A stretch of DNA of 64,000 bases. Source: Stentor roeselii. Lineage: Eukaryota; Ciliophora; Heterotrichea; Heterotrichida; Stentoridae. The DNA is taken from positions 31,277-95,276 of the forward strand of contig RSEH01000184.1 of assembly GCA_006503475.1 (NCBI GenBank), written 5' to 3'. Below the pieces are notes generated by a model, which saw only the letters and a program-made list of their open reading frames with translations, searched no databases and was not told the DNA's origin. Below, one piece after another: positions 15,268-17,738 of this stretch (its first letter is position 1; every line of letters starts with the position of its first letter). Position numbers and translations under genes: made by a program.

Positions 15268-16143
15268 ATGTTGATTTTTTACCTGCTCGTTCAAAGTGCC
15301 CAGGCCTGGTGGTGCAACGGTCACATGACAGTTGCAATGGTGGCACAGCTGGACCTTCAAGCGAACCATCCTGAAATTTACTCAACGGCTCAAGAGATCC
15401 TGGCCCCTATGAGTGGAGCTTTAACTCACGGAGTCGCTAACACCTTCGTCGAGTCAGCTTGTTGGCCTGATGTGATAAAGCAATACAATTTCAATGAGTT
15501 CACCAATGCGCACTTTATTGACAGGCCTTATAATCCTCAAGGAATGATGAACGCTTCTGGGGCTGAGGAAAATGTTGTCTTTGCTATCAATAATTTAGTT
15601 GTTACTTTGAAGGCTCAGACTGTTCAGACTGCGCCATTGGAAACTTCTATGTGCTTGAGGTTCTTGATACATTTTTTAGGGGATATTCATCAGCCTCTTC
15701 ATTGTGTCAGTCTTTGGAATAAGGTCTTTCCTAGTGGAGACCAGGGAGGGAACTTGTTTCCTATTCAGTTTACGGAGGATATCACTGAATTGCATGCCTT
15801 GTGGGACTCTTGCATTGGAGTTTATGATAATGATTTGAGCTTACCACTTAATGATAGCTCTTGGGATGTCCTTCAGATTTGGGCTCAATCGGCTATGAAT
15901 AATTATACAAGAGAGGATCTGAAAAATGAACTGATGGTCACTGATTTTAATAAGATCAGCATTGAAAGCTTCATGCTTGCTAAGGCTTATGCTTATGAAG
16001 GAATTCAAATGGGAGGAACACCCAGTCAAGAATACCTTGAAACTCGATGGGCAGTAGTTCAGAGACAATTAGCTTTAGCAGGTTACCGACTTTCAGATCT
16101 GCTTTACAGAACTTTATCGAAACAAGTAAGTCTGAATGATTAG
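15268..16143 (+). CDS. Secreted S1/P1-type zinc nuclease
   Basis: 291 aa. A signal peptide MLIFYLLVQSAQA ends before WWCNGHMTVAMVAQ; in this family the mature N-terminal Trp and the following His bind zinc. Further zinc motifs: HFIDRP, FLIHFLGDIHQPLHC, and GDQGGNLFPIQF...ELHALWDS, the standard HxxxD pattern. The length fits the family. These enzymes degrade single-stranded DNA and RNA at acid pH, so a food-vacuole or secreted role is likely in a phagotroph. I place the start at 15268 because it gives a clean signal peptide and fits the start context; a longer frame to 15226 begins with GTG and runs into the neighbouring gene. Confidence 0.93.
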   Translation: MLIFYLLVQSAQAWWCNGHMTVAMVAQLDLQANHPEIYSTAQEILAPMSGALTHGVANTFVESACWPDVIKQYNFNEFTNAHFIDRPYNPQGMMNASGAEENVVFAINNLVVTLKAQTVQTAPLETSMCLRFLIHFLGDIHQPLHCVSLWNKVFPSGDQGGNLFPIQFTEDITELHALWDSCIGVYDNDLSLPLNDSSWDVLQIWAQSAMNNYTREDLKNELMVTDFNKISIESFMLAKAYAYEGIQMGGTPSQEYLETRWAVVQRQLALAGYRLSDLLYRTLSKQVSLND

Positions 16144-16151
16144 TTATTAAT

Positions 16152-16382
16152 TTAAGCCGATGGAAACCTAAAAACAAGATGAAGAGTGGATTCTTTCTGT
16201 ATTCCATAGTCACGAAGTAGTCTAGAATCTTCGAGTTGTTTTCCAGCAAATATAATCCTCAAATGTTGAGGATACAGTCCTTCTTCTTCAAAAATCCTTT
16301 CTTTAAGTTCCAGTATCGATTGAGTCGGGCAGACATCAACAAAAAACCTTTCACCAGTAATGCACTGTATAAATACAATCAT
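16152..16382 (-). CDS. 76-residue ubiquitin-like protein without C-terminal diglycine
   Basis: Exactly 76 aa and collinear with ubiquitin without gaps. Kept by position: Ile44, Ala46, Gly47, Lys48, Gln49, Leu50, Glu51, Asp52, Tyr59, and the run [10 protein letters not shown] (61-70) including Lys63 and the Val70 patch. Lys27 is present; Lys6, 11, 29 and 33 are replaced (Gln, Glu, Arg, Glu). The tail reads RFPSA in place of RLRGG, so the protein cannot be activated and conjugated in the normal way, and no extension follows the stop. It could act as a ubiquitin mimic or a free Ubl. The start faces the PG-repeat gene with 36 bp between ATGs. Confidence 0.85.
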
Positions 16383-16418
16383 TCTTTATAATCCCAATCT
16401 CTCTATAATAACAGTTAA
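16383..16418. promoter_or_regulatory. 36-bp shared 5' region of Ubl and PG-repeat genes
   Basis: The gap contains TTTATAATCC and CTATAATAAC, A/T boxes facing both ways. A bidirectional promoter is inferred from spacing. Confidence 0.4.
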
Positions 16419-17738
16419 ATGAACCAGGCAAAAGACTCTGAACTAAACCTAAATCTCGCTCATTCAATTCCAGTTCATAAGAAATCAAAGTCTGCCCTTC
16501 CCCAGGCAGTGCAACTATCAGCCTTCGGGTCAAGCACACGAAAAGTATCAAAATTCGACATAATCGATCCTTTGAACTTCAAAATGACAACTCCAGGTCC
16601 TGGCAACTACACCTTATCCGACCAGTTCTCTCATAGATCTCAGTATTCAATGACAAATCACAGCGAAATCGAATGTCAGTACTTAACTCAAAAGCACTTC
16701 CAAGACCCATCAGCTAAAATTTCATTCAAAAAAAAAACTCACTCAACAAGTTCTGATTTGAACACAACTCGTCCAAAAGAACCTCAAATTTCATTTCCTA
16801 AGTCATCAGCTGAGCGAGGTCTATGGGACTCAAACAATTACTACCATCCTTACAAGCTTCCCGATAAAAAAAATCCAGGTCCAGGAGCTTATGAAAAACA
16901 TTATCAGCCCATAAAAGGTGAAGTTTTTTCCTGGATCTTCAAGTCACAAAAGGAAAAATTCGACGAGTTTGTCCCTCGAGGTGTGGGTCCAGGTAGCTAC
17001 TCAGCTGAAAGTCCTCGAAAACTGCCTGACTGGAAGCACTTCGGTTCGAAAGCCCAAAGAAATTGCAAGATAAAACTCGATGATTCAGTAATTCTCGCCC
17101 CTTCTCCAGATGCTTACACGCCTTACGTGCCGGGGGTGAATCACAGTTCGACTTACGTGTTTAATTCAGGATCAAAGCGAGGATGTCAGACTTTTCCTCC
17201 AGAGTCAGTGGGTCCAGGTGCTTACATATTAGAAAAAGGTCAGAGCCTTTTGAAACCTGTCACTTTTTCCAAGACTGAAAGAGAAAAATTCGAGTATTTT
17301 AAAGGAAAAGAAGGAGTCGGCCCTGCTCATTACGTGAACAGTAAAAATCATGAACCTTCAAGTAGAAGTTGTTCATTTGAACTTTATAGTGAAAGGTTCT
17401 ACCCTGTTGATAAGACTGGAGTTTTTTTAATTCCTGAAGATGAAGATGAGAGGGATGATGTGATTGTCAATGAAAAAGTCTTTGTGAGGAAAAGAAATAA
17501 AGTTCCTTTTAACTCGAGTGTTGAAAGATATGCGAAAACTCATGAAACTTGGATTAAGAAGAAAGTTGCTCCTGATCCTGGAGTTTATGATGTAAAAGAT
17601 TTGAGGAAAATCGGGTTTCATTCTAATCAGGCTTCAAGGTTTCAGTCTCCAGATAAGAAGGTACCTGGACCTGGGGAGTATGAATTGGCTCAAAGTCTTT
17701 TGAAACCTGTTAAGGATTCGTTTAAAAGTAGCTTTTAA
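16419..17738 (+). CDS. PG-rich (SHIPPO/STPGR) repeat protein, probable ciliary or cortical microtubule protein
   Basis: 439 aa, Lys/Ser/Pro-rich, no membrane segment. It has spaced PGPGxY-type units: TTPGPGNYTLSD, KNPGPGAYEKHY, GVGPGSYSAE, SVGPGAYILEK, GVGPAHYV, APDPGVYDVKD and KVPGPGEYELA, the sperm-tail PG-rich repeat pattern. Family members bind axonemal microtubules as inner or surface proteins. A role in cilia or cortical microtubules is expected for a ciliate; exact position unknown. Confidence 0.85.
   Translation: MNQAKDSELNLNLAHSIPVHKKSKSALPQAVQLSAFGSSTRKVSKFDIIDPLNFKMTTPGPGNYTLSDQFSHRSQYSMTNHSEIECQYLTQKHFQDPSAKISFKKKTHSTSSDLNTTRPKEPQISFPKSSAERGLWDSNNYYHPYKLPDKKNPGPGAYEKHYQPIKGEVFSWIFKSQKEKFDEFVPRGVGPGSYSAESPRKLPDWKHFGSKAQRNCKIKLDDSVILAPSPDAYTPYVPGVNHSSTYVFNSGSKRGCQTFPPESVGPGAYILEKGQSLLKPVTFSKTEREKFEYFKGKEGVGPAHYVNSKNHEPSSRSCSFELYSERFYPVDKTGVFLIPEDEDERDDVIVNEKVFVRKRNKVPFNSSVERYAKTHETWIKKKVAPDPGVYDVKDLRKIGFHSNQASRFQSPDKKVPGPGEYELAQSLLKPVKDSFKSSF

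Follow-up and report, generated by a model that had tools for sequence, protein, structure and literature searches.

A 76-residue relative of ubiquitin in Stentor roeselii that lacks the GG tail and may act by non-covalent binding

The window analysed here, a stretch of 64,000 nucleotides from the ciliate Stentor roeselii, contains a gene for a 76-residue ubiquitin-like protein (the 76-aa UBL), which follows ubiquitin without a gap from Met1 to residue 76 and ends in FRFPSA. We propose, with moderate confidence drawn from sequence and structure prediction, that this protein is a stand-alone, ubiquitin-derived and non-conjugated molecule that acts by non-covalent binding. In the proposed mechanism, a single-copy nuclear gene would encode a ubiquitin-derived protein whose role as a conjugated tag has been lost, and the Ile44 face that it has kept would dock on ubiquitin-binding domains. 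Since the donor tail is missing, the protein would be unable to tag substrates, and would instead compete with ubiquitin or serve as an adaptor for ubiquitin receptors. The gene structure, the retained Ile44 face and the loss of GG and of K6, K11, K29 and K33 can be read from the sequence, and the ubiquitin fold is a prediction.

The frame lies on the minus strand, with its ATG at 16382-16380 and its TAA at 16154-16152 (Table 1). An earlier note had given a 76-aa open reading frame here without naming a strand, and had described it as ending without any extension; both statements were borne out. The genome search found one copy of the gene, the next best matches being 51% identical. When a splice that would restore GG was looked for, with introns of 12-199 nt and the donor inside the coding sequence, 0 of 114 GT-AG combinations kept residues 1-47 and gave GG after residue 66, which rules out a spliced GG extension. 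Stentor introns measure 15-16 nt and the standard code is used, according to the available part of PMC9505925; no GT-AG stretch of 15 or 16 nt starts inside the coding sequence. The standard code fits this genome. With TGA read as a sense codon, 24 stretches of at least 250 aa are open, of which 21 have at most one TGA (17 have none and the remaining four have it at or near an end) and three have 5-12, and the stops of 40 open reading frames of at least 150 aa under the standard code are TAA in 24, TAG in 11 and TGA in five. These two counts rule out a reassigned TGA.

Table 1. Coordinates of the 76-aa UBL gene, its parts and its neighbours in the window
Feature	Position	Strand	Remarks
Coding sequence of the 76-aa UBL	16152..16382	-	76 aa + TAA; codon use gene-like
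Residues 1-38, diverged half	16269..16382	-	12/38 identical to own ubiquitin, Met1 uncounted
Residues 39-70, conserved half	16173..16268	-	24/32 identical; R42, I44, G47, K48, Q49, K63, H68, V70
Tail FRFPSA in place of LRLRGG (F71 R72 F73 P74 S75 A76)	16155..16172	-	
TAA stop of the 76-aa UBL	16152..16154	-	GG added by none of the splice alternatives tested
In-frame TAA, two codons upstream of the ATG	16386..16388	-	
S1/P1 nuclease, convergent neighbour	15268..16143	+	PF02265, 9.4e-52; stop 8 bases from the UBL stop
SHIPPO-repeat gene, divergent neighbour	16419..17738	+	PF07004, 2.9e-9; 36 bases between both ATGs

The likeness to ubiquitin extends over the whole protein. It is identical at 38 of 76 gapless positions to the ubiquitin of the same genome, and it scores 76.2 bits against PF00240 (cut-off 25.4, E=1.7e-21), far from chance. 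The 60 listed of its 378 PDB matches are ubiquitins, ubiquitin fusions or designs; in NCBIfam the only match is to Rad23, at 28.7 of 207.3 bits and thus far below the cut-off. The earlier note had reported the gapless alignment, the retention of Ile44, Lys48, Lys63, Val70 and the [10 protein letters not shown] run, and the replacement of LRLRGG by FRFPSA, all of which the reading frame and the alignment confirm. A beta-grasp fold like that of ubiquitin is predicted: the AF2 model reaches a pLDDT of 91.5 with 24 rows, its tail being less certain, and the 23 ubiquitin-like rows behind it are bacterial or viral ubiquitins that pull the model towards ubiquitin. From the single sequence, without an alignment, the model is poor (pLDDT 58). 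Of the 50 solved chains that Foldseek listed for the confident model, 48 have a TM of 0.91-0.97 and two a TM of 0.31.

Conservation is unevenly distributed between the two halves given in Table 1 (Fisher p=0.00035 on 12 and 24 identities; 13 in the first half if Met1 is counted), and the excess of residues 39-70 over residues 1-38 is the largest among 75 UBL domains of the genome, although structure may by itself favour conservation of the second half in UBLs. The Ile44 face, which we take to comprise positions 8, 42, 44, 47, 48, 49, 68 and 70, is identical at seven of the eight, L8 being I. A regression on the 74 other UBL domains predicts 4.2 identities there (residual SD 1.5), so the excess is only about 1.8 SD.

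Several lines of evidence suggest that the frame is a real gene. Codon use gives it a score of 0.156 per codon. The remaining five frames score 0.027-0.082, and 19 long open reading frames of the window, some of which may be antisense, score 0.097-0.254. Compared with two ubiquitin copies from the same genome, pS is 0.82 and 0.95 (saturated) and pN is 0.35-0.36; dN/dS against a unit from contig C80 is about 0.23, a value that comes from paralogues with near-saturated silent sites and is not assignable to this branch. Neutral decay from ubiquitin was simulated at four levels with 500 runs each, and 0.8-5.8% of the runs at a level kept the frame intact; about 13-18 identities were left at 0.75-1.0 changes per site, versus the 38 observed, and about 40, close to the observed number, at 0.3 changes per site. 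Together, the simulation and the substitution data favour constraint on the protein, without dating it. Relaxed constraint is a further possibility, as the protein sits on a long branch in both of the trees that were built (0.68 and 0.93 changes per site). The first tree used 42 of 76 rows (those with at least 28/72 identities, the stand-alone proteins and three rows from contig C202), and the repeat used 39 of 76, without the three C202 rows; bootstraps were unsettled. The sole fork of the 76-aa UBL in the first tree (80/52) was with one long C202 row, and in the repeat it stood alone; ubiquitin was nearest by path in both. A recent duplication of one paralogue was rejected, a supported sister being absent from both trees.

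By its sequence the protein belongs to a large radiation of UBLs. In the genome (44.4 Mb in 522 contigs), 104 matches to PF00240 were found, 103 of them over the cut-off. Forty regions and the window were read, followed by five short regions, and 17 loci with weak matches were left out; the 40 regions and the window gave 75 UBL domains at least about 60 residues long. GG stands at the end of 18 of these 75. Among the 25 that close an open reading frame, GG is present in eight and absent from 17, and UBLs without GG are therefore normal in this genome. Judged by sequence, what sets the 76-aa UBL apart is the amount of ubiquitin face that it has kept and not the missing GG. The genome also has its own ubiquitin genes, a polyubiquitin (C354) and a Ub-L40 fusion (C432).

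Eight stand-alone open UBL frames were found in the 40 regions and the window, four with GG and four without. Those with GG are three at C77 and one at C288 that is SUMO-like by eye; those without are the 76-aa UBL, one at C20, and one each at C471 and C23, the last two adjoining other UBL frames and so perhaps being exons. The three on C77 (L047, C77:126000-130000) end in NRGG, NKGG and YRGG and form one supported group (99/99 and 100/100); on their sequence they are possibly extra conjugated modifiers. Some 13-16 kb away on the same contig lies a second E1-like gene (L171, C77:144043-144288 and flanks; compare L170 on C196), which looks like a pseudo-E1: aligned to yeast Uba1, it has Glu at the place of the catalytic Cys600 and L, S and P for N574, Q576 and D591 of the Arg72 pocket, while Tyr586 is kept. 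The C20 protein (L044:1501-1722, minus strand) is Ub/NEDD8-like and stands alone like the 76-aa UBL, stopping exactly before GG (VLQLR); the bases examined show no GT directly behind its final codons. It differs in being identical to ubiquitin at 18/38 and 13/32 positions in the two halves and in having Gln at 72, Arg at 48 and Ala at 63. A cluster on C80 (L041, C80:93500-99900) is degenerate and polyubiquitin-like; the last unit of one of its open reading frames ends in FRRRAG, and one ubiquitin-like match there has an in-frame TAA. Five loci (L059, L068, L058, L045 and L054) are long open reading frames in which several diverged UBL domains follow one another in tandem, with GG missing from most of the junctions, and four others (L050, L061, L070 and L074) begin with a Cys/His-rich region that is B-box-like by eye and end in a UBL domain without the full GG.

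Ubiquitin proper and the conjugated type I UBLs are recognized by a C-terminal GG, either exposed from the start or freed by processing, which the 76-aa UBL lacks. Its UBL domain without GG agrees with the type II UBLs, which are described in the available text of PMC9652315 as having no GG and acting non-covalently; the protein fits this class by sequence, and the kept Ile44 face suggests a non-covalent mode. NEDD8 can be set aside as an identity, since it has Ala at residue 72, where the 76-aa UBL has R72 and where Arg or Ala helps to tell ubiquitin from NEDD8 (PMC3731359, available part). UBL5 is absent among the 60 listed PDB matches (of 378), which likewise speaks against Hub1/UBL5. An orthologue of Hub1/UBL5 is encoded separately as a further stand-alone gene (C383, 97 bits to UBL5), and the 76-aa UBL is thus not Hub1. 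Hub1/UBL5 ends in a double Tyr, and the present protein in FRFPSA.

The tail bears on a further statement of the earlier note, that such a protein could never be activated by E1, which proved overstated. In the accessible part of PMC3731359, variants selected by the ubiquitin E1 always kept Arg72, often took aromatic residues at 71, 73 and 74, and accepted Ser, Asp, Asn or Gln at 75; the library varied residues 71-75 only, Gly76 being constant throughout. The tail of the 76-aa UBL agrees with these rules at F71, R72, F73 and S75; Pro74 is outside the residues that this part of the source names, and Gly76 is replaced by Ala. Variants with Ser75 loaded onto E2, and non-native residues at 74 or 75 blocked transfer from E2 to E3 (PMC3731359). 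The Uba1 of the genome keeps the Arg72 pocket (N574, Q576, Y586 and D591) and the catalytic C600. From its sequence, the protein may therefore dock on E1 or E2 or be charged by them, and it is unlikely to serve as a donor that modifies substrates, given the block expected at the E2-to-E3 step and the Ala in place of Gly76. By analogy, the C-terminal Ala could also be a C-degron, as KLHDC10 accepts tails ending in Ala (PMC11568203, available part).

The same tail invites a reading in which Uba1, and perhaps E2s, can still adenylate the protein or bind it as a thioester, while its onward passage to E3 or substrate fails and the cascade is blocked. The variant UbG76A, which is conjugated slowly and poorly removed, counts in its favour, as do R72, the tolerated residues at 71, 73 and 75 and the intact Uba1 pocket. 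BfUbb of Bacteroides fragilis, which also lacks GG, is an in vitro inhibitor of ubiquitination that becomes covalently bound to human E1 (PMC3352274, available part), but that link was proposed to run through a C-terminal Cys that is absent here, and the selected E1 variants all had Gly76, where the 76-aa UBL has Ala combined with P74 and S75. Such a dead end seems to us quite unlikely. The protein might otherwise be an acceptor only, on which E2s build K48 or K63 chains and which forms the proximal free end of unanchored chains without ever being a donor; this natural counterpart of the laboratory Ub-D77 we regard as unlikely. Three of the seven lysines are retained (K27, K48 and K63), the others being changed (K6Q, K11E, K29R and K33E), though K48 and K63 sit in the half that is conserved anyway. 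Chain building at K48 by Ube2K depends on E51, D58 and Y59, with R54 tested too, and also on N60 of the acceptor (PMC4655369, available part); the 76-aa UBL keeps the first four of these but has G at 60.

A third role, that of an obligate subunit of one complex in the manner of Hub1 or Elongin B, unlinked to general ubiquitin receptors, has in our view a small chance of being right. Half of the protein has changed, which would suit such a role. The small stand-alone UBLs that are known to lack GG act with fixed partners, but it is the Ile44 face, kept here, that general ubiquitin receptors read, and the protein is not Hub1/UBL5, which is encoded separately. That the gene is a decaying duplicate without function is very unlikely: it is a single copy on a long branch, and ubiquitin-like stretches with stops occur elsewhere in the genome (C80, C288 and C16), but its frame is intact, its codon use is gene-like and the Ile44 face is kept.

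The preferred reading, a non-conjugated protein acting by non-covalent binding, can be set beside known systems. With ubiquitin the 76-aa UBL shares 76 gapless positions, the predicted fold, the Ile44 face, K48, K63 and R72, and it differs in its 50% identity, in lacking LRGG and in being a single unit without a fusion partner. Stand-alone UBLs without GG are already known, and so close a double of ubiquitin is unusual. Hub1/UBL5 is the best-known stand-alone case, small and without GG like the present protein but unlike it in sequence, the 76-aa UBL being far closer to ubiquitin. The pTINCR microprotein is likewise small, without GG and non-covalent, a mode suggested here by sequence, and differs in being a UBL by modelling that carries SUMO-interacting motifs (PMC9652315, available part). 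Closest in kind is BfUbb, which is ubiquitin-like throughout, has lost GG and keeps many E1-contact residues; it differs in being bacterial and secreted, with a signal sequence, a C-terminal Cys and 63% identity to human ubiquitin (PMC3352274 and PMC5705921, available parts). Among 86 bacterial, archaeal and viral loci (L079-L164; the best 80 of 252 relatives from genome contigs, plus viral contigs), some of which are short MAG contigs and perhaps contaminants, 76 have a hydrophobic stretch right before the ubiquitin Met1 and eight have GG at 75-76. By sequence, secreted bacterial ubiquitins without GG appear to be widespread beyond BfUbb. The ubiquitins of these loci are identical to the Stentor ubiquitin at 57-72 of 76 positions and to the 76-aa UBL at 31-41, and the FRFPSA tail occurs in 0 of the 86. 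In literature searches on Stentor or ciliate ubiquitin, ciliate polyubiquitin, and UBLs without GG together with Hub1, no title naming such a protein was found among the matches listed.

It is conceivable, if unlikely, that the protein is a dedicated acceptor- or receptor-only eukaryotic ubiquitin, in which evolution preserved the surface that is read (Ile44) and the sites of extension (K48 and K63) while stripping away the tail for donation and most of the remaining chain-forming lysines; if true, the gene would supply a ubiquitin with a free end that adjusts ubiquitin signalling, in a genome where many UBLs gave up conjugation. More generally, natural stand-alone ubiquitins with a binding face and without a donor tail would be ready probes of ubiquitin without conjugation. 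The Stentor genome offers several relatives without GG beside normal ubiquitin, Uba1 and Hub1, and, provided that the 76-aa UBL is expressed, one organism could serve to separate the roles that ubiquitin plays in being read, extended and activated.
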